Assembly: GCA_025454815.1 (NCBI GenBank)
Contig: JALONR010000006.1
Span: forward strand, 1-64,000
Direction: 5' to 3'
Length of the DNA: 64,000 bases
Source: Bacteroidales bacterium
GTDB lineage: Bacteria; Bacteroidota; Bacteroidia; Bacteroidales; VadinHA17
Shown here one piece after another: positions 5,867-47,732 of the stretch. The notes under the pieces were generated by a model. The model searched no databases. It was given only the letters and a program-made list of their open reading frames with translations, and was not told the DNA's origin. Both the position numbers and the translations under genes were made by a program. Every line of letters starts with the position of its first letter. Position 1 is the stretch's first letter.

Positions 5867-5874
5867 CAAAGGTA
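5867..5874 (-). promoter_or_regulatory. Candidate -7 element upstream of gyrB
   Basis: On the minus strand the sequence TACCTTTG matches the Bacteroidota -7 consensus TAnnTTTG. No clear TTTG lies at the right distance upstream. Initiation here would give a gyrB leader of roughly 60 bases. Confidence 0.45.
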
Positions 5875-5954
5875 GCAAAATATGCCGGTTTTGCGTTGTG
5901 AAATGATAACTATTCATGAAAAAATATGAACAGTTTACCGGTAATTGCCACACT

Positions 5955-7646
5955 TTACAGGCTGTATGAAATTCCACCGAGAAGCATAAAGTTTCTGGAA
6001 GGATAATAGTTCCATTCAAAATACCTGTTGTACGAAATATTGTTGCATCTGATCCAGAATGAAATGTCAGGTGTATACCTGTATTCGATACCCATATTGA
6101 GGTTGGGATGGAAGGGCAGCCGTATGGTCTCCCCGGGAGCCTTGATCCTGGCGTACCTGTCTCCGGTAAATGTAAGGTCAGCAGATGCGATAATCTTGTT
6201 CCTGAGGTTATAGTCTGCCCTGGCAGATCCGTCCCATTCCGGTTTGTGCCACGCATATTCCTGCCCCGACAGGTTATACCCGTAATAGTTACCCTCAAGT
6301 GAAAGGGTCAGCTGACGGTTGAGCGGGAGTTTCATCTCGCCATGGATCCTGAGGAGGCTGCCGTCAGAGTAAACAGGCACGAAGTAATTGCCCACCCCAA
6401 GAGTATCATTCATAAAGAGAAGCATATCCTTGAAGAGGGTGTAACTGGCATCTATAGCATATGACGAGGTGACATTCATGGTGCCTGAAAATCCTGCCTT
6501 GATCCTGAGTTCATTGTCTGTGCTCTTCAGGTTGTACAACGTGTCACCGGGCAGCATCCATGGATTTAAATAGGCAGTGTTCCGTGCCTGGTTATTGTCA
6601 AGCGAACCGTCGATGGATCCGGTAAACCTCAGGAACTTAGGTATTATCCTGAAGGTGAACATGGCATCAGGGTAGAAAAACATGTAAAGCTTTGAGTTAC
6701 CCCCAACAAGCGGGTCATGGTTTTCCTTAAGATCAGCCGCCAGTTTCAGGCCGAAACGGAACCTCCAGTCGTCATTTCCCTTTGTGAGGTAAGGTGCCAG
6801 CATCAGCAGGTTCCTCGCCTTGTAGTCAATCCCCTTTGAAAATAGATAAAGATCGTACCCCGCATCCAGTCCGGCATAAAGCCCGTAAAGATTCGTCCCT
6901 GCCTTGAGTGTAAGCCCCGGGTTATGCTGAATACCGTCACCCTGCCTCGTAAAAAGGTTATACTTCAGTGCAACGTCCCAGTTGAGGTCACTTGAATCGG
7001 GCTCCATGGTAAAATACCTTGCCTTTGCCGTCACGTCATAATAGAGTGATCTTATATCTTCCTTTTCAGGATCGTACCCGGTAACATCAGGATTGTAGCC
7101 GTATGCGTGACGGGTCATATGCCTGAAATCGATATCAGCATCAAAACGGCTTCTCCGGAAATATTTCTTGCCATACAGCATTGCCTGGTTGTCAAGAAAA
7201 CCGGCATGAACCCTTCTGTCATTCTGCAGCTCGATCTTGCCGGCAGAACCATAGGTTCGGGTAAACAGACCTATTGTCCCCTTGTTTGAACGCCCGTTTG
7301 AAACACTTACCTCAAGGAAAGGCGACAGGTAGGTACCAAGGCCGAGGCTTACATATCCTTTCTTAAGCTCCGGCAGCGGGTCAGGTGAGAGAACCGCCGA
7401 CTTGATCGGGCTTACCTCAAATTCCGGAACAAAGGAACCCGGAGTAAAGTCATAGTCAAACCTGATGCTGACAGTAGTAGTGTCGTCAGCTGAGGGGAGA
7501 AGAGCCCGCTTTGTGGCCTCCTGAAGTGTCGGTTTGTAGGGATTGTAAAGGGTGACGCTCCTCCTGATGGTCTCATCTCCAGTCTGTCCGGCGCCTATCA
7601 GCGGCAGAAGCAGGAATGCAGTGGTGATATATATTCTTCCTTTCAT
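5955..7646 (-). CDS. Outer-membrane beta-barrel protein, TonB-receptor-like
   Basis: 563 residues with a signal peptide (hydrophobic residues 7-18, then GAGQ). The rest is alternating amphipathic strands rich in Tyr, Asp and Arg, ending with a hydrophobic/aromatic strand (LLGGISYSL), as expected for an outer-membrane beta-barrel. No plug domain is evident, so it is not a complete TonB-dependent receptor; annotation pipelines may still name such proteins TonB-dependent receptor-like. It begins 34 bases after the stop of the long TPR gene, so the two probably form one operon. I infer that the TPR protein helps assemble or energise the barrel; substrate is unknown. Confidence 0.72.
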   Translation of the reverse strand: MKGRIYITTAFLLLPLIGAGQTGDETIRRSVTLYNPYKPTLQEATKRALLPSADDTTTVSIRFDYDFTPGSFVPEFEVSPIKSAVLSPDPLPELKKGYVSLGLGTYLSPFLEVSVSNGRSNKGTIGLFTRTYGSAGKIELQNDRRVHAGFLDNQAMLYGKKYFRRSRFDADIDFRHMTRHAYGYNPDVTGYDPEKEDIRSLYYDVTAKARYFTMEPDSSDLNWDVALKYNLFTRQGDGIQHNPGLTLKAGTNLYGLYAGLDAGYDLYLFSKGIDYKARNLLMLAPYLTKGNDDWRFRFGLKLAADLKENHDPLVGGNSKLYMFFYPDAMFTFRIIPKFLRFTGSIDGSLDNNQARNTAYLNPWMLPGDTLYNLKSTDNELRIKAGFSGTMNVTSSYAIDASYTLFKDMLLFMNDTLGVGNYFVPVYSDGSLLRIHGEMKLPLNRQLTLSLEGNYYGYNLSGQEYAWHKPEWDGSARADYNLRNKIIASADLTFTGDRYARIKAPGETIRLPFHPNLNMGIEYRYTPDISFWIRCNNISYNRYFEWNYYPSRNFMLLGGISYSL

Positions 7647-40012: not shown

Positions 40013-42439
40013 ATGCTGAAGAATTTCCTTGTTCACACAATCCGGAATATGAGAAAACAGGGCGGGTATGTCATGCTTAACATGGCAGGCCTGATAGTAG
40101 GTATCACCAGCTTCCTGTTCATAAGCCTCTACGTGATCCATGAACTGAGCTACGACCGGTTCCATTCCAACTATGAGAATATTTACAGGCTAAAGGTGGT
40201 TGGCCGGATGGCGGGCAGTGAACTCAACCAGGCCGTTACAGCTGCACCCATGGCGCAGGCAATGCTGAATGATTACCCTGAGATCATCAAGGCAACAAGG
40301 TTAAGGAATTTGGGAGAATGGCTGATAGGCTACGGGGAGAACAGGTTCAATGAGGAAGGGGTCATTTTTGCTGACTCTACATTCTTTGATGTTCTCGACT
40401 TCAGACTCCTGAAAGGAGACCCGGCAACTGCCCTGACCAGGCCAAGGTCTATGGTCATGTCCGAGGAATACGCGCAGAAATACTTCGGCAATGCTGATCC
40501 TATAGGACAGAAAGTGACGATGGAATCTGACACTGTGTTGTACACAGTCACCGGAGTCGTTGAGAATGTGCCGGACAACTCGCACATTAAATTTGACATG
40601 GTAGCCTCTCTGAGTACCTATCCTCAAATGGCAAATAACCAGTTCTGGATAGCACATAACTTTTACACATATATCGTCACAGCAGACGGGACACAGAAGG
40701 ATGCCCTCCAGGAGAAACTGCAGGAGATGATAATCAAGTATGTAGGACCTCAACTGCAGGAGGCTATTGGTCAGTCCATAGATGATTTCAGGAACGCCGG
40801 CAATGACTTCAGCTATGTCCTCGAGCCATTGAAGGATATTCACCTCAAGGGCGCAACCCAGTATAACGCCGAGCCCCCTGGTTCACTCACAACCGTCTAT
40901 ATTTTTGCAGTAATTGCTGTCCTGATACTTGTGGTTGCCATTATAAACTATGTCAACCTGGCAACTGCAAAATCAGCAGGAAGAGCCAAAGAGGTTGGTG
41001 TAAAAAAGGTTGCAGGAGCAAGTCGGACAGGACTTATTTCCCAGTTCCTGGGAGAGTCGGTGATACTGGCTGCACTGGCAGGAATTATTGCCTTTCTGCT
41101 TGTTCTTGCACTTACGCCACTGTTCAATCAGCTGATTGGAAAAACACTTTCAGTGGGGTTGACCGGTGTTAACGGCATTCTGTTTATCATTGGGCTGATA
41201 ATATTAACAGGACTGGCTGCCGGGTTTTATCCTGCCATGGTTCTGGCTTCATTCAGACCTGCCGAGGTACTCAAGGGTACACTCAGCCCCGGATCAATGT
41301 CAAAACGACTCAGGGGAATCCTGGTTGTCTTTCAGTTTGCCGTGGCAATAGTCATAATAATAGGTTCAATCATTGTCTTTCGCCAGTTGAACTTCATGAC
41401 GAAAAAGGACATTGGCTTTGACAAGGAAAACCTCATCGTTATCCGGAGATCAGATGCATTCTGGAGGCAGAGGGAAACTTTCAGAAACCAGGTAATGCAA
41501 ATTGAAGGTGTTGTAAATGCCGGGTTTTCAAGGCAGGTACCCGGGATGGATTTCAGCAACAATGCATTCTTCCGTGATGATGACCCTGAAAAAAACACGT
41601 ATCTCCTTCAGCAGGCATGGGTAAGCTTTGACTTTCCCCAGACCCTGGGAGTGGAACTTGCGAGTGGCCGCTTCTTTTCAAGGGATTTCGGGACTGACTC
41701 CACTGCCGTGCTGATTAATGAGGCCGCGGTTAAATTACTGGGTCTTAAGGAGCCTGTCGAGGGGCAGTATATCCTTCAGCCTGCCGGACCGCAACAGTTC
41801 CAGAGATTTCAGATAATCGGGGTAATGAAGGATTTCAATATCACCTCCATGCATAAGGCAATTGATCCTGTTTGTTTCTCGGTTCTCTTCCCCGGCGGGG
41901 GAGACCAGTTTGCATCGGTAAGGCTTTCGGGAACAAACATTCCTTCCGCACTTGCCGGAATCGAAAAGAAATGGAAGGAGTTTACCCCGACTCAGCCGTT
42001 CCAGTATGAATTCTTTACCGACTCCTGGAATAACCTCTATGCTTCGGAAATGAAGACAGGTCGCATTTTTATCCTTTTCTCAATGCTGGCAATCTTTATT
42101 GCCGCGATAGGCCTTATCGGCCTGGTGGCATTCATGACCAACAAAAGGACAAAGGAAATAGGAATCAGGAAGACCTACGGTGCATCTGTTCAGGTAGTTC
42201 TGAACCTGCTCATAAGAGAAATTGCAATTCTTATCCTGATTTCATCCCTGATTGCATGGCCAATGGCCTGGTTCGGATCAAGATTCTGGCTTGAGGGTTT
42301 CGCCGACAAGGCAACTGTCAATCCTCTGATTTACCTGTTTGCCACAATCGGGGTACTGATCATCGGATTCCTTGCTGTCAGCTACCAGACCATAAAGGCA
42401 GCAGGCTACAGCCCGGCCAGTGCGCTGCGGATTCATTGA
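40013..42439 (+). CDS. Large FtsX/MacB-type ABC permease (808 aa)
   Basis: Third paralogue in the window. TM1 lies in MLNMAGLIVGITSFLFISLYVI; the core contains INYVNLATAKSAGRAKEVGVKKV; the last helix set has FMTNKRTKEIGIRKTYGAS, all as in the two minus-strand permeases. It stands alone with no ATPase, adaptor or TolC adjacent, so it either shares the ATPase of the 20.9-24.3 kb operon or an unlinked one. It is bounded by a terminator upstream and inverted repeats downstream. Confidence 0.92.
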   Translation: MLKNFLVHTIRNMRKQGGYVMLNMAGLIVGITSFLFISLYVIHELSYDRFHSNYENIYRLKVVGRMAGSELNQAVTAAPMAQAMLNDYPEIIKATRLRNLGEWLIGYGENRFNEEGVIFADSTFFDVLDFRLLKGDPATALTRPRSMVMSEEYAQKYFGNADPIGQKVTMESDTVLYTVTGVVENVPDNSHIKFDMVASLSTYPQMANNQFWIAHNFYTYIVTADGTQKDALQEKLQEMIIKYVGPQLQEAIGQSIDDFRNAGNDFSYVLEPLKDIHLKGATQYNAEPPGSLTTVYIFAVIAVLILVVAIINYVNLATAKSAGRAKEVGVKKVAGASRTGLISQFLGESVILAALAGIIAFLLVLALTPLFNQLIGKTLSVGLTGVNGILFIIGLIILTGLAAGFYPAMVLASFRPAEVLKGTLSPGSMSKRLRGILVVFQFAVAIVIIIGSIIVFRQLNFMTKKDIGFDKENLIVIRRSDAFWRQRETFRNQVMQIEGVVNAGFSRQVPGMDFSNNAFFRDDDPEKNTYLLQQAWVSFDFPQTLGVELASGRFFSRDFGTDSTAVLINEAAVKLLGLKEPVEGQYILQPAGPQQFQRFQIIGVMKDFNITSMHKAIDPVCFSVLFPGGGDQFASVRLSGTNIPSALAGIEKKWKEFTPTQPFQYEFFTDSWNNLYASEMKTGRIFILFSMLAIFIAAIGLIGLVAFMTNKRTKEIGIRKTYGASVQVVLNLLIREIAILILISSLIAWPMAWFGSRFWLEGFADKATVNPLIYLFATIGVLIIGFLAVSYQTIKAAGYSPASALRIH

Positions 42440-42613: not shown

Positions 42614-42642
42614 TTGGTGAAAACAAATTTCTCTTACATTTG
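42614..42642 (+). promoter_or_regulatory. Promoter of lysine operon
   Basis: TTG at 42614-42616, then 18 bases, then TACATTTG at 42635-42642, an exact match to the Bacteroidota -7 consensus TAnnTTTG. Transcription should start near 42648, 30 bases before the leader-peptide ATG. Confidence 0.65.
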
Positions 42643-42677
42643 CTGTCACTTTTTAAAGAAACAAACAGGAATACATA

Positions 42678-42734
42678 ATGAATTTTTATACAAAATCCAT
42701 AAAACATGCAGGTAAGAAACCTCACCGGCAATGA
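42678..42734 (+). CDS. Lysine-containing leader peptide of attenuator
   Basis: An 18-codon frame, MNFYTKSIKHAGKKPHRQ, with four Lys codons including a final AAG-AAA pair at 42714-42719. It lies between a matching promoter and an intrinsic terminator ahead of a lysine biosynthesis operon. Its stop codon lies inside the 3' arm of a small hairpin (CCTCA 42720-42724 with TGAGG 42732-42736), exactly the geometry of amino-acid attenuators: a ribosome stalled at the Lys pair would block that hairpin. I chose this frame because of position and Lys content; no homologue was searched. Confidence 0.7.
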   Translation: MNFYTKSIKHAGKKPHRQ

Positions 42735-42736
42735 GG

Positions 42737-42787
42737 GATTTTGTGTAACAATATAAGGCACGAATCTCAGGATCGTGCCTTTTTTTT
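42737..42787 (+). promoter_or_regulatory. Attenuator: antiterminator and terminator hairpins
   Basis: The terminator is AAGGCACGA (42755-42763) pairing with TCGTGCCTT (42773-42781) over nine bases, followed by a run of T. A competing antiterminator pairs 42735-42746 (GGGATTTTGTGT) with 42758-42768 (GCACGAATCTC), about 11 pairs with one bulged T. The antiterminator strand begins in the arm of the upstream CCTCA/TGAGG hairpin, so the three structures are mutually exclusive as in trp- or his-type attenuation. Confidence 0.72.
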
Positions 42788-42808
42788 AACCTGATCCTGA
42801 ATATAATA

Positions 42809-43804
42809 ATGATAACAAGGGAACTTGAGCAGATAATGAAGATTGATTCAACCTCCGGGAAAGAGGCTGAACTCGCACGGTTCATGGCTGAACACTTCAT
42901 GGCTCCCGGCGCTGATCTGGAAATACAGGATGTGGGTGACGGTGCCATAAACCTGTTTTACAAATGGGGCAAACCGGAAATCATCTTCTGCTCCCACCTT
43001 GATACCGTACCTCCTTACATTGCTCCCGCCTCAGGAGACGGCCAGGTTTCAGGAAGAGGCGCCTGCGATGCCAAAGGACAGATAATCACAGCATGGAACG
43101 TCTGCAGGGAACTGTACAATGAGGGCGAAAACAACTTCGGCCTTTTGCTTGTGTCAGGAGAGGAGACCGGCTCAACCGGAGCCAGGGTTGCGAACAACCT
43201 CATCAAGGGCTGCAGGTATGTCATAATTGGCGAACCTACTGAAAACAAACTTATTAAAGCCGGAAAAGGGATCCAGCTCTATGATGTGCAGATACGGGGC
43301 ACCAGCTGCCACTCGGGCTACCCTCAATTTGGCGACGATGCTGTTGAAAGAATGAGACAGTTCCTCAACAGGCTGGCCGCTGCGGACTTCCCTTCAGATC
43401 CTGTCCTGGGTTCAACCACTTATAACATCGGTCAACTCCAATCTGAAAATGCCTATAATGTTCTGCCTGATCTTGTGAGGTTTAAAATCTATTTCAGGAC
43501 TACTCACGCATCATATCAATTAACAGAAGATATCCTGAAAGGCCTCTCTGATGAGAAAACCACAATCACCAAAATAAGGGAGGACAAGCCCTTCCTGTAT
43601 CATTATATTGATGGATTCGAATGCGATATCGTGGCATTCGGCTGTGACGGCCCGTGCCTGACCAACCTGGGGAAATGCCTCCTGTACGGCCCGGGAAGCA
43701 TAAAAGTGGCACATACCGAAGATGAGTATATCAATGTTTCAGAAATCGATAAAGCAATAACTGACCTAAAAAAAATCTACCATACACTTAAAAAGGGAAT
43801 CTAA
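42809..43804 (+). CDS. M20-family deacylase, probable succinyl-DAP desuccinylase
   Basis: 331 residues. Zinc-ligand motifs: CSHLDTVPP (His63, Asp65), GRGACDAKGQ (Asp87), GEETG (Glu118/Glu119), GEPTENK and the final HTEDEY. The dimerisation domain is present (RGTSCHSGYPQFG). It is the first structural gene after the lysine attenuator and is followed by lysC, dapB, dapA and dapD. Because DapD makes the N-succinyl intermediate, the deacylase step (DapE) is needed, and this enzyme is the obvious candidate. It is shorter than classical DapE (about 375) and resembles ArgE/LysK-like deacetylases, so the assignment rests on context. Confidence 0.8.
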   Translation: MITRELEQIMKIDSTSGKEAELARFMAEHFMAPGADLEIQDVGDGAINLFYKWGKPEIIFCSHLDTVPPYIAPASGDGQVSGRGACDAKGQIITAWNVCRELYNEGENNFGLLLVSGEETGSTGARVANNLIKGCRYVIIGEPTENKLIKAGKGIQLYDVQIRGTSCHSGYPQFGDDAVERMRQFLNRLAAADFPSDPVLGSTTYNIGQLQSENAYNVLPDLVRFKIYFRTTHASYQLTEDILKGLSDEKTTITKIREDKPFLYHYIDGFECDIVAFGCDGPCLTNLGKCLLYGPGSIKVAHTEDEYINVSEIDKAITDLKKIYHTLKKGI

Positions 43805-43809
43805 CCGGA

Positions 43810-45222
43810 ATGATAGTAATGAAATTTGGCGGAACATCCGTCAGGGATGGTGAAGCAGTTGAAAGACTTGTAAAGATTGTTGGCCGAAACTCACCTCAGA
43901 AAACAGTTGTGGTGGTTTCAGCCCTGGCCGGGGTGACCGATTCGCTGATAAAGATCGCCCGCCACGCGGCAAAAGGCCAGGCCGGAAAAGCGATGAACCT
44001 CCCTGAAGAACCTGACGAGAGGCACCTTGATATGACGGATGAGTCAGCAGTCCTTATATCCGGACTTGAAAAGAGGCACCTGGAGATGGCTGAAAAACTG
44101 CTTGACGGAAATGAGGAATTGCTCAGTGAGACGACGGAAATCATAAAGCAGCTCTTTACCAAACTGAAAGAAATTGTAAGGGTTATCTCAGTACTGGAGG
44201 AACTATCTGACATGTCTATGGCCAAAATCCTCTCGTATGGTGAGATACTATCCTCTTCGATTATCCACAGGGCAATGCTTAAATCAGGACTTAGGTGCGC
44301 ATTCGCCGATGCCAGGAGTTTAATAATCACCGACGGAAAATACCTGAAGGGAGAACCACAGACAGATATTATCTGCCGGAAGGTTCCGGAATTGCTGGAA
44401 AGAGAGTTCCGGAATAATGACGTTGTAATCACCCAGGGGTTTATTTCCGCCACGGCAGACGGGATCGGCACCACACTTGGCAGAGGAGGGTCTGATTACA
44501 CGGCGGCACTGATTGGCATGGCTGCCAATGCCTCCGAGATACAGATCTGGACAGACGTGGACGGGGTTCATACCACAGACCCGAGAAAAGTAAATAAAAC
44601 CAGGAGCATTTCGGTGATGTCATTCAGTGAAGCAGCCGAACTTTCATTCTTCGGGGCGAAGGTACTTCACCCTGCAACCATACAGCCTGCCGTGGAGAGA
44701 AACATCCCGGTACGGGTGCTTAACTCAATGCAGCCTGACAGGCAGGGTACCCTTATCCTGAGAGATGACGAGGTTCACGAAAACGGGGTCAGGGCCATTT
44801 CGTTCAAGGAAAATATTACCGTAATCAACGTCTTCTCAATGAAGATGCTGAATGCCTTCGGTTTCCTTACCCGCCTGTTTGAGGTTTTCGGGAAATACGG
44901 CATATCTGTTGACCTTATCAGCACTTCCGAGGTAAACGTCTCTCTGACAGTTGATTCAGACACCAGCCTCGATGGCATTGTCGGGGAATTATCACAGTTT
45001 GCTGTGGTATCGGTCAGCAGGGATAAATCGCAGGTATCCGTTGTGGGGAAAAACCTGAAGGAGACAACAGGTCTTGCAAAAAGAATCTTCGGTGCGGTAA
45101 GCGATTACAACATTACAATGATAAGCCAGGGGGCTTCTGATATAAATATTAGCTTCGTGGTAAACAAGAGCGACCTGACAGCAGTGGTCAGTGCTTTACA
45201 TAGAGAGTTTTTCGAAGGATGA
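43810..45222 (+). CDS. lysC: Aspartate kinase, monofunctional, with ACT domains
   Basis: 470 residues. The kinase domain opens with MKFGGTSV and has VVVVSALAGVTD, ITQGFI and TLGRGGSDYTAALIG, followed by WTDVDGVHTTDPR and the FFGAKVLHPATI segment. Two ACT domains at the C-terminus (from about residue 330, with ISVDLISTSEVNVSLTVD) indicate feedback control by lysine or threonine. The long insertion after residue 60 is typical of AK III-like enzymes. It catalyses the first step of the aspartate pathway. No homoserine dehydrogenase is fused. It begins 5 bases after the deacylase stop. Confidence 0.95.
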   Translation: MIVMKFGGTSVRDGEAVERLVKIVGRNSPQKTVVVVSALAGVTDSLIKIARHAAKGQAGKAMNLPEEPDERHLDMTDESAVLISGLEKRHLEMAEKLLDGNEELLSETTEIIKQLFTKLKEIVRVISVLEELSDMSMAKILSYGEILSSSIIHRAMLKSGLRCAFADARSLIITDGKYLKGEPQTDIICRKVPELLEREFRNNDVVITQGFISATADGIGTTLGRGGSDYTAALIGMAANASEIQIWTDVDGVHTTDPRKVNKTRSISVMSFSEAAELSFFGAKVLHPATIQPAVERNIPVRVLNSMQPDRQGTLILRDDEVHENGVRAISFKENITVINVFSMKMLNAFGFLTRLFEVFGKYGISVDLISTSEVNVSLTVDSDTSLDGIVGELSQFAVVSVSRDKSQVSVVGKNLKETTGLAKRIFGAVSDYNITMISQGASDINISFVVNKSDLTAVVSALHREFFEG

Positions 45223-45312: not shown

Positions 45313-46014
45313 ATGAAAATTGTTTTATCAGGATACGGGAAAATGGGAAAGGAGATCTTTTCCATCCTTCAGGAAAGAGAGGATGTAACTCTCTGCACAA
45401 CTGAAGACATCTGCGGATTCGACAGGGCAGTCGCCCGGGAATCGGTTTGCATTGATTTCACCACACCGGAGGCATTCCGGGCAAATTACAGATTCATAGC
45501 CGACAGCTTCAGGGCGGCAGTTATCGGAACCACCGGCTGGAGCGACATAAAAGAGGAAGTGACCCGCTATTTCCGGGATAAAGGCACAACAATGATATAT
45601 GCCTCCAACTTTTCTGTAGGGGTGAATATATTTTTCGAGATCGCCCGCATTTCATCGGCTATGCTGGCCTCCGCCGGTAACTATGACCCATATATAACCG
45701 AGCTTCACCATAAATTCAAACTTGACTCACCCTCAGGTACGGCCGGTACGGTAAGGGACATAGTGGAGAAGGAGACCGGCAGAAAGTGCCCTGTTCAGTC
45801 GGTCCGGTGCGGCCATATACCGGGAACCCATAACCTGGGTTTCGAGTCAGAAGTTGACCGGATAGTGCTCACGCACGAAGCCTTTTCAAGAAAGGGTTTT
45901 GCTGCCGGGGCTGTCCAGGCGGCATTATGGACTTCAGGACTTGAGGGTGTATTTGATTTCAGGGAATTATTGAAAGAAAAATTCAAAACAGCATTATACA
46001 ATGAGAGAGATTAG
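45313..46014 (+). CDS. dapB: 4-hydroxy-tetrahydrodipicolinate reductase
   Basis: 233 residues. NAD(P) motif GYGKMGKE at residues 7-14, IGTTGWS in the middle, YITELHHKFKLDSPSGTA carrying the catalytic His pair and Lys-Ser-Gly-Thr loop. It reduces the DapA product with NAD(P)H. It lies 90 bases after lysC and overlaps dapA by 14 bases, so it is coupled to it. The gene is at the short end of the family (bacterial DapB about 240-270). Confidence 0.95.
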   Translation: MKIVLSGYGKMGKEIFSILQEREDVTLCTTEDICGFDRAVARESVCIDFTTPEAFRANYRFIADSFRAAVIGTTGWSDIKEEVTRYFRDKGTTMIYASNFSVGVNIFFEIARISSAMLASAGNYDPYITELHHKFKLDSPSGTAGTVRDIVEKETGRKCPVQSVRCGHIPGTHNLGFESEVDRIVLTHEAFSRKGFAAGAVQAALWTSGLEGVFDFRELLKEKFKTALYNERD

Positions 46015-46882
46015 AGGATGTGGCACAGCGCTGATCACACCATTTGATGATGATTTTGAGATAGACTGGGATTCTTTCGGAAAACTGGTCAGCCGGCAGC
46101 TGGATGCCGGGATTGATTTCCTGGTTCCGCTGGGCACAACCGGAGAAACACCATGCCTGGAAGAATATGAGAAGGAGAAACTGCTTGCAACCGTAACTGA
46201 AATTAACGGGGGTAAGGTACCTGTGGTGGCCGGAGCCGGATCAAACTCCACAAAAAAGGTATTAAATAACATATCATCCCTTTCAAGACATAACCCCGAT
46301 GCTTTCCTGGTTGTGGTTCCCTATTACAACAAGCCAACGCAGGAGGGTATCTTCCTGCATTTCAAAGCAATCTCTGAATCAACCTCAACTCCCCTTATAC
46401 TCTATAACATCCCGGGCCGTACCGGCGTCAACATGACTGTGGAGACAACACTGAGACTTGCTGAACTTAAGAACATTATTGCAGTCAAGGAGGCCTCGGG
46501 CAACTACGAGCAGATAAGTGAAACCATCCGCCTTGCCCCGGATGGATTTTCAGTTTTGTCAGGCAACGATGATATGACTTTCCCCCTTATGTGCTCCGGG
46601 GGTAAAGGTGTCATAAGCGTTGCTTCCAACGTTGCCCCCTCCCCCATTGTGAAAATGACCGGCCTTCTGTCAGAAGGGCGCACGGAGGAGGCTGCGGTTC
46701 TGCACCACAGGCTCATGCCGCTGTTTAAAGCCTGTTTCGTTGAAAGCAATCCCGGCCCGGTGAAATCGGCCATGGCACTCAAAGGCCTGATAAGGAACAG
46801 GCTGAGACTGCCACTGACGAGCTCTACAGTGCAGACCAACCGGTTAATGGAAAGCATATTGGAAGATATTGCCGATCTCTGA
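46001..46882 (+). CDS. dapA: 4-hydroxy-tetrahydrodipicolinate synthase
   Basis: 293 residues, the usual length. Class I aldolase barrel with GTTGETPCL (44-53 region), the catalytic Tyr135 in LYNIPGRTGVN and the Schiff-base Lys163 in IIAVKEASGN, plus SGNDDMTFPLM. It condenses pyruvate with aspartate semialdehyde, the first committed lysine/DAP step. Start ATG at 46001 lies inside the dapB 3' end. Confidence 0.97.
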   Translation: MREIRGCGTALITPFDDDFEIDWDSFGKLVSRQLDAGIDFLVPLGTTGETPCLEEYEKEKLLATVTEINGGKVPVVAGAGSNSTKKVLNNISSLSRHNPDAFLVVVPYYNKPTQEGIFLHFKAISESTSTPLILYNIPGRTGVNMTVETTLRLAELKNIIAVKEASGNYEQISETIRLAPDGFSVLSGNDDMTFPLMCSGGKGVISVASNVAPSPIVKMTGLLSEGRTEEAAVLHHRLMPLFKACFVESNPGPVKSAMALKGLIRNRLRLPLTSSTVQTNRLMESILEDIADL

Positions 46883-46901
46883 AACTATAAATCAACAGGT
46901 T

Positions 46902-47732
46902 ATGAAAAACATTTCATTACTGAAAGGGGAGTTTGAAAAGATTGCAGATTCCGGAGATCCGGAAAAATCCCTTGCTCTTTTCTATAAGGTCAGGGATGCG
47001 CTCGAAAGCGGGGATCTGAGGGTTGCGGTAAAAGGTGAGACCGGTTGGGCGATAAACTCGTGGGTGAAAAGCGTGATCCTTTGGGGATTCAGGTATGGAG
47101 TCCTCAGAGAATATGGCGAGGGCACCCTCTCATTCCATGACAAGGATACGTACCCGGCAAGGTCATTCAGAACGGATGACGGCATAAGAGTCGTCCCAGG
47201 AGGCACCTCGGTGAGGAGCGGTGCATATGTAGCCCCCGGAACGGTGATTATGCCTCCCTCCTACATAAATACCGGAGCATACGTTGACAGCGGATGCATG
47301 ATTGACTCACATGCGCTGGTTGGATCATGCGCACAGGTAGGACGTAACGTTCACATCTCTGCCGGTTCACAGATTGGAGGTGTCCTTGAACCTGTAAATG
47401 CCATGCCGGTGATTATTGAAGATAACGTTTTTGTCGGCGGTAACTGCGGGATTTATGAAGGGACAATCATAGGGGAGAGAGCCGTGATAGGTACAGGGGT
47501 TATTCTTAACGGTTCAACCCCCGTTTTTGACAATACCACCGGAGAGTTAATGAGAAAAAATGATAACGCACCATTGAAAGTCCCAGCAGGTGCCGTGGTA
47601 GTAGCCGGAAGCAGACCTGTAAGGAAAGGTCCCGGAAGGGACCAGGGGATCCATCTCTACTGCCCGGTGATAATCAAATACAGGGACCAGAAAACCTCCG
47701 CAGCAACGGCACTGGAGGAGACGCTCCGGTAA
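46902..47732 (+). CDS. dapD: Tetrahydrodipicolinate N-succinyltransferase
   Basis: 276 residues from the ATG at 46902, 20 bases after dapA stop; an extension to a TTG at 46869 would overlap dapA and is unlikely. Left-handed beta-helix hexapeptide repeats run through GTVIMPPSYINTGAYVDSGC and MIDSHALVGSCAQVGRNVHI, then GGVLEPVNAMPVIIEDNVFVG, as in DapD. It makes N-succinyl-2-amino-6-ketopimelate from succinyl-CoA. This shows the organism uses the succinylase branch for DAP and lysine, and it is the last gene of the operon visible here. Confidence 0.95.
   Translation: MKNISLLKGEFEKIADSGDPEKSLALFYKVRDALESGDLRVAVKGETGWAINSWVKSVILWGFRYGVLREYGEGTLSFHDKDTYPARSFRTDDGIRVVPGGTSVRSGAYVAPGTVIMPPSYINTGAYVDSGCMIDSHALVGSCAQVGRNVHISAGSQIGGVLEPVNAMPVIIEDNVFVGGNCGIYEGTIIGERAVIGTGVILNGSTPVFDNTTGELMRKNDNAPLKVPAGAVVVAGSRPVRKGPGRDQGIHLYCPVIIKYRDQKTSAATALEETLR

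Follow-up and report, generated by a model that had tools for sequence, protein, structure and literature searches.

A predicted lysine-sensing leader-peptide attenuator upstream of an M20-lysC-dapBAD operon in the Bacteroidales

Introduction

The trpL, hisL, thrL and leuL leaders of Enterobacteria are leader-peptide attenuators, and a 2004 work by Vitreschak is said to count the Bacteroidetes/Chlorobi among the groups in which some attenuators exist for amino acids other than lysine. The theory of leader-peptide attenuation is set out in the part of PMC1183508 available to us. The accessible portions of PMC1262725 and PMC2659441 name such attenuators for trp, his, thr, leu, ilv and phe and assign lysine genes to the riboswitch, which the first of these papers cites for lysine elsewhere. 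According to the excerpt of PMC2965389 consulted, leader-peptide systems were, to its authors' knowledge, unshown outside the Proteobacteria and Actinobacteria (ermC aside), to which it adds His leaders in the Firmicutes. The available parts of the open-licence literature searched contained no description of a lysine leader-peptide attenuator, nor of any amino-acid leader attenuator shown in the Bacteroidota.

Here we analyze a leader region in a 64,000-nt stretch of DNA (hereafter, the window) from Bacteroidales bacterium (VadinHA17; GCA_025454815.1, JALONR010000006.1 positions 1-64,000, forward strand). The region shares with trpL, hisL, thrL and leuL a promoter, a short ORF rich in cognate codons, the pairings 1:2, 2:3 and 3:4, a T-run and a cognate operon, and it differs from them in its lysine codons and lysine genes, its Bacteroidota promoter and the placement of its Lys codons, one lying inside segment 1, one just past it and a pair in the loop of 1:2. 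The predictions made in Actinobacteria for trp, ilv, leuS and trpS likewise rely on comparative evidence for a leader peptide and alternative hairpins, whereas no conserved RNA structure is reported upstream of lysine operons in the consulted part of that work (PMC1262725). Sinorhizobium SEP5, which precedes what its authors word as an aspartate dehydrogenase gene, is also a proposed leader peptide from a small ORF with a Thr/Lys codon cluster; unlike the window leader, it has six Thr and three Lys codons and its translation was shown, and an attenuator fold is not among the content of the portion consulted (PMC10117765). The lysine riboswitch (RF00168, L-box) also controls lysine genes, in other phyla, but neither the window nor any of the 149 genomes searched in the order matched its model. 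The mechanism considered here is known, and lysine as the sensed amino acid appears to be new within the open-licence literature searched.

Results

Gene content of the downstream operon

The leader element is followed by an M20 deacylase gene and by lysC-dapB-dapA-dapD, all on the plus strand:

42809-43804, plus strand: M20-family deacylase, first gene (matches to ArgE/DapE-type models, each of those shown scoring under its curated cut-off)
43810-45222, plus strand: lysC, lysine-sensitive aspartokinase III type (NF006570, 467.5 bits, cut-off 455)
45313-46014, plus strand: dapB (TIGR00036, 132.7 bits, cut-off 122)
46001-46882, plus strand: dapA (TIGR00674, 328.6 bits, cut-off 206.15)
46869-47732, plus strand: dapD, tetrahydrodipicolinate N-succinyltransferase (NF008808, 300 bits, cut-off 204)

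The operon makes the amino acid specified by the leader codons, with lysC, dapB, dapA and dapD each above a curated cut-off, although dapD scores 217.7 bits against TIGR00965, under that model's cut-off of 375.4. The M20 protein matched 38 NCBIfam models and fell below the curated cut-off for each of the 25 shown. Because the ArgE/DapE models shown all score below cut-off, its role as a succinyl-DAP desuccinylase (DapE), which we consider probable, is predicted from operon context. These scores bear out the genes named in the initial annotation (M20 deacylase, lysC, dapB, dapA, dapD), with the M20 protein below the cut-offs shown.

The M20 deacylase (42809-43804) falls in a clade that scores under the curated ArgE/DapE cut-offs shown, and its distribution within the genus is patchy: apart from the window, it was found in 4 of the 21 genomes. 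The M20-lysC-dapBAD operon may have been horizontally acquired. A second lysC lies elsewhere in the window genome (G000:C66).

Architecture of the leader region

The region upstream of the M20 gene comprises the following elements:

42614-42642, plus strand: promoter, with TTG at 42614-42616, an 18-nt spacer and TACATTTG at 42635-42642 (read in the sequence)
42678-42734, plus strand: leader ORF of 18 codons, MNFYTKSIKHAGKKPHRQ, ATG to TGA (sequence reading; coding selection)
42686-42698, plus strand: segment 1, TTATACAAAATCC, pairing with 42736-42748 as anti-antiterminator (-20.5 kcal/mol, z -4.8)
42720-42736, plus strand: small hairpin CCTCA (42720-42724) / TGAGG (42732-42736) over the stop codon (sequence listing; not conserved)
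42735-42748, plus strand: segment 2, GGGATTTTGTGTAA, of which 42735-42746 pairs with 42758-42768 as antiterminator (-9.2 kcal/mol)
42755-42787, plus strand: segments 3 and 4, intrinsic terminator stem 42755-42781 with T-run 42780-42787 (-13.9 kcal/mol)

The promoter, which we take to be of the Bacteroidota -33/-7 type on the basis of the generally known consensus, is separated from the leader ORF by 35 nt. The four Lys residues of the leader (6, 9, 13 and 14) are encoded by AAA at 42693, AAA at 42702 and AAG-AAA at 42714-42719. An intrinsic terminator stands between the leader and the first gene, the end of its T-run lying 21 nt from the M20 gene.

From the leader to the T-run, the sequence folds far more stably than its dinucleotide shuffles (z -6.0, 0/300), and the same shuffles single out the 3:4 (z -4.5, 0/300), 1:2 (z -4.8, 0/300) and 2:3 (z -3.0, 5/300) pairings individually. 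The strongest element of the leader region is the 13-bp 1:2 helix, in which 42686-42698 pairs with 42736-42748. Neighbouring pairings exclude each other, so that 1:2, 2:3 and 3:4 compete in the order needed for attenuation. The promoter (TTG-N18-TACATTTG), the 18-codon leader with four Lys codons ending in an AAG-AAA pair, the antiterminator (42735-42746 with 42758-42768) and the terminator (42755-42781 plus T-run) described in the initial annotation are all found here at those positions, the last two with the energies and z-scores just given. Its mutually exclusive structures also stand, but the CCTCA/TGAGG hairpin, which it had placed first in the series, is far weaker than the 13-bp helix, the main competitor; present in the window, this hairpin is absent in five homologous elements (L004, L005, L062, L181 and L182), and we rejected it as a required part because it is not conserved.

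Binding of lysine or tRNA by the leader RNA (riboswitch or T-box), or of a protein by an attenuator, would regulate the same genes, and the available part of PMC2659441 gives lysC as a target of the riboswitch in Shewanella. Against this explanation, which we regard as very improbable, a tRNA was the only Rfam match at gathering score in the window, RF00168 was found in 0/149 genomes of the order, and the block conserved among relatives consists of the ORF, the terminator and the antiterminator. The RF00168 search of the 149 genomes, the window genome included, used filters that lose some weak matches, and the corresponding control search was positive in 4/14 control genomes. The T-box (presumably RF00230) gave no match at gathering score across the whole window. 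The lysine riboswitch and other Rfam families were rejected on the Rfam search of the window and the RF00168 search of the order.

Homologous elements in the Bacteroidales

The M20 type was detected at 72-77% identity in 4 of the 59 other genomes first searched; all four belong to the 21 genomes of the same genus, and in each of them the leader and attenuator are present. Named genomes were then searched with a five-member M20 alignment; the best 80 loci were kept, and 36 of these were read upstream (L076 with only 25 nt of upstream sequence). The element is present in L062, L064 and L065, whereas L063, at 70% identity in M20, lacks it. An extra gene between M20 and lysC, identified by HMM as an aspartate-semialdehyde dehydrogenase (asd), was noted at 7003-8073 of L067, and L066 has a gap between M20 and lysC resembling that of L067.

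A covariance model (R1) refound the four genus members with E-values of 1.6e-18 or better among 60 genomes, the window genome included. Over 393 genomes of the order it yielded a single additional true member, G338, which belongs to another family; this search scored few candidates per genome under strict filters, making absence from it weak evidence. Within the family of G338 (f9), M20 searches found 16 loci in 149 genomes, and the element is carried by G338, G468 and G520, the last with the same upstream sequence as L064. Two more (G450 and G432) have unlike Lys-rich ORFs and terminators, MALKSKHNPKQNKRKNCLPWNFIA and MSKKSYKRGKQVSNLLRDSLV, and no such element was seen in the other 11 of the 16. 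A second model (R2) searched against this family recovered G338, G468 and G520 together with one false match. L315 (E 4.5e-4) was not a member on reading, and 15 of 17 weak covariance-model matches read were not leader-like. The two leader-like ones were L155, a true homologue, and L148, where a leader rich in Trp precedes a TrpB-like gene.

In all, nine distinct elements were compared (the window, L003, L004, L005, L062, L064, L065, L181 and L182), representing at least two Bacteroidales families. The order M20-lysC-dapB-dapA-dapD follows in the window and in 7/8 others (L305, L306, L307, L308, L311, L064 and L065); the L062 contig ends inside lysC. Across the seven closest elements, TAC[A/T]TTTGC is present in every case 27-35 nt 5' of the leader ATG, with a variable -33 part.

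The terminator might instead be an ordinary one belonging to the upstream permease gene (40013-42439), preceded by chance by a small ORF, and it does lie on the same strand, 315 nt past the permease stop. Yet a promoter and a protein-selected ORF stand between the two, and the element tracks the lysine operon while its upstream neighbour varies: a TPR gene in L062, L307 and L308, a permease in L311 and another gene in L064/L065. We therefore rejected a plain terminator of the upstream gene, an account that the intervening promoter and ORF and the changing neighbours render scarcely credible.

Conservation of the RNA pairings differed among the three helices. Over the nine-row alignment (A3), 3:4 pairs in 97.0% of cells, a value matched by 1/500 shuffles, with both-side changes in two pairs (58/500 shuffles) and four cells (1/500), the double-sided changes occurring in the more distant family. 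The antiterminator 2:3 is paired in 92.9% of cells in the nine elements, compared to at most 61.5% when slid, and shows nearly no covariation (1 double change, observed values reached by 128/500 shuffles) because segment 3 is almost invariant. The 1:2 helix is paired in 78.0% of cells, compared to at most 58.4% when slid, with 3 double changes (reached in 117/500 shuffles), and its long form is strongest in the window and L064; this pause or anti-antiterminator pairing is thus very strong in the window, weakly supported over the nine elements and unprotective in seven of them. Given these proportions, the antiterminator and terminator constitute the conserved core. The compensatory hairpin changes that the initial annotation had suggested seeking in relatives were found for the terminator, in the distant family, but amount to a single double change in 2:3 and three in 1:2.

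Selection on the leader peptide

The leader is a short ORF with codons clustered for one amino acid; its translation is predicted, and the comparison of the seven closest leaders is indicative of coding selection. The mean BLOSUM score was 2.17 in frame 0, a value reached in 0/5000 column shuffles (null 1.00, sd 0.36); the two remaining forward frames scored 0.85 and 1.20, and no reverse frame exceeded 1.42. Synonymous swaps among leaders involve AAA/AAG and CGN/AGA, and the L064 and L065 leaders present a 6-nt in-frame insertion. Lys14 is kept in all seven (six AAA, one AAG), Lys6 and Lys9 in six each and Lys13 in five. The initial annotation had proposed aligning relatives and had held that unconserved Lys codons or hairpins would refute an attenuator; Lys codons, antiterminator and terminator are kept before the same operon, with Lys14 in 7/7, but the four Lys codons are not all retained.

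Residues other than Lys are also constrained. In the seven closest leaders position 15 is Pro or Gln, position 16 is His, Tyr or Asn, and every one has an Arg within the final two positions of the 18-codon alignment, by way of CGN/AGA swaps. The distant leaders MNTISVNNNQFKNSSKKP and MNKSIKKYLFSSKKPKL retain K-K-P. The L062 leader (5869-5977) has its stop 18 nt farther downstream, and its ORF reads through segment 2 (MKVHPKSIKQGGKKQYRRQGILCS); the ribosome would there cover segment 2 while still elongating.

Folding of the leader in the presence of a stalled ribosome

To compare stalled and terminating states, transcripts were folded to just past segment 3 with the ribosome footprint masked, the footprint being a simplification. 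Segment 3 capture in the window was 0.75 for a ribosome at Lys6, 0.69 at Lys9, 0.75 at Lys13 and 0.11 at Lys14, compared to 0.09 for a ribosome at the stop codon and 0.07 for ribosome-free RNA. With the failing Lys14 left out, the contrast computed from Lys6, 9 and 13 was 0.62 (null -0.05, sd 0.11), a value reached in 0/500 dinucleotide shuffles of the upstream part. An antiterminator that excludes the terminator is hence freed in silico by stalls at K6, K9 and K13 of the window, not at K14. A stall at Lys14, the sole Lys kept in all seven leaders, leaves segment 3 unfreed in the window, and its counterpart in L065 (K16) gives 0.28 compared to 0.46 at stop. The Lys14 stall fails because 1:2 can close again around the ribosome in the model, which we judge sterically unlikely.

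At least one Lys stall exceeded the stop state in 8/9 elements. L181 is flat (0.42-0.46 in every state), and the contrast is modest in L004 and L005 (0.60-0.77 vs 0.43-0.48). The state with no ribosome is off in the window and L065 (0.24) and unprotected in 7/9 elements (0.42-0.79).

These observations bear on whether the leader could be an arrest peptide, in which nascent K-K-P-[H/Y/N]-x-R, rather than the speed at which Lys codons are decoded, halts the ribosome on the model of TnaC and ErmCL, possibly together with a ligand (free lysine, for example). Such a peptide would account for the non-Lys residues kept at positions 15 and 16 and for the terminal Arg, for the presence of K-K-P in L181 and L182 of another family, and for the poor performance of the invariant K14 as a stall site in the mask model. 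Against it, L181 and L182 both lack the Arg, the leaders found before lysC-lysA are Lys-rich and have no such motif, and stalls at Lys6 and Lys9, distant from the motif, fit the folds. We consider an arrest peptide unlikely, if somewhat less so than either of the alternatives weighed above.

Leaders upstream of lysC-lysA and other genes

Other lysC genes also show a layout of promoter, small ORF and terminator, and the next gene was lysA above the curated cut-off in 3/3 loci tested. The survey comprised 101 lysC loci, made up of 90 of 91 places (G046, with an incomplete start, was left out) and 11 added loci; partial matches (L057, L058, L060 and L061), a locus of another type (L037) and repeats (L040, L042 and L048) were excluded. 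A terminator of -12 kcal/mol or better lies close to lysC in 14/101 loci, and an ORF of 10-45 codons ends near it in 14/14, compared to 8.5/14 in shuffles. With the longest ORF taken at each locus, Lys makes up 16.3% of residues compared to 10.8% in shuffles (reached in 3/200), with Met (7.4 vs 2.6%) and Gln (6.8 vs 4.4%) raised relatively as much as Lys or more. By the same -12 kcal/mol test, the second lysC of the window genome itself (L213) has no proximal terminator.

Lys-rich leaders with terminators before lysC-lysA occur in about six Bacteroidales families, the clearest being those of G134 (MKKMKKYNKQKKDKTICRALLF), G053 (MKGLKNIVKIKQVKRIKPVYKRM) and G166 (MKTKTYKMKVKKVNIQLP) and the pairs G059/G267 (KKQxxKQAV) and G115/G218. 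A Lys-rich small ORF and proximal terminator were noted at L215, L049, L230, L038, L246, L248, L211, L263, L041 and L059. Twelve of the 14 terminator-bearing loci were folded, with start codons chosen by eye (G262 and G252, which have no Lys-rich tail, were left out), and ten of the twelve were read codon by codon. Five of these ten have, at the end of their leader, six to eight bases complementary to the first strand of the terminator: CTGTAGGC (G115), CTGCAGGC (G218), CCGGGC (G134), GCAGGCC (G059) and, spanning the stop, GCAGGC (G022); in G115/G218 the leader end changes in step with the terminator. The remaining five have five or fewer complementary bases, and codon reading gave no such terminator match for the G267 leader end. 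Stalls favour antitermination over the stop state in 8/12 folded cases, with no clear effect in G267, G059, G032 and G034, and in most of the twelve the untranslated RNA was also antiterminated. The lysC-lysA leaders are likely lysine attenuators, on weaker evidence than that available for the window.

No convincing leader was seen at 22 lysC loci of other orders, and support in this sample accordingly does not extend beyond the order. A nearby terminator is present in 4/22, which we would attribute to the ends of upstream genes; at one of the four (L289), a short ORF with three Lys in 11 codons precedes the terminator.

Within M20-lysC-dapBAD operons, L309 (G450) and L310 (G432) present Lys-rich ORFs and terminators unlike the window type, and these leaders are possibly of independent origin. 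In the family of the window genome, L148 (G029) has a Trp-bearing candidate leader, MFKITLHNWRWHRINNYTVIQTVM, followed by a terminator, GGCACGCTGttcaCAGCGTGCC, with T-run, upstream of the TrpB-like gene (TIGR01415 trpB_rel, above cut-off), suggestive of a possible tryptophan attenuator.

Discussion

Taken together, these data suggest, with a probability that we place at roughly 0.86, that the element at 42614-42787 is a ribosome-mediated transcription attenuator sensing charged lysyl-tRNA. A leader-peptide attenuator explains the data far better than its rivals, and this reading, already put forward in the initial annotation, is supported by conserved Lys codons, antiterminator and terminator, by the lysine/DAP operon downstream and by the absence of a lysine riboswitch match in the window and in the 149 genomes searched. 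As predicted from sequence, the locus displays the features of an attenuator that can be evaluated in silico, except firm 1:2 pairing across homologues.

Under the predicted mechanism, with enough lysine the ribosome would reach the TGA at 42732 and cover segment 2, leaving segment 3 free to pair with segment 4, and transcription would stop at 42780-42787. Under a shortage of lysyl-tRNA, the ribosome would wait at Lys6, 9 or 13/14, covering segment 1 or the loop of 1:2; segment 2 would then capture segment 3 before segment 4 is made, and RNA polymerase would read into M20-lysC-dapBAD. If the leader were untranslated, the 13-bp 1:2 helix would hide segment 2 and the terminator would form. We infer the stalling, the transcription start site and the lysine-dependent read-through of this element from its sequence.

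More broadly, we give about even odds to the joint reading that, in many Bacteroidales, lysine leader-peptide attenuation replaces the missing riboswitch and has had several origins, both in M20-lysC-dapBAD operons (the window type and the unlike L192/L195 type) and upstream of lysC-lysA in about six families, some lysC-lysA antiterminator strands lying inside the last leader codons and changing with the terminator. A class of lysine attenuators in the Bacteroidales would name unannotated regions upstream of lysine operons and would suggest how the pathway is controlled in bacteria in whose order no lysine riboswitch was detected. A single pathway would then be served by different RNA sensors in different phyla.
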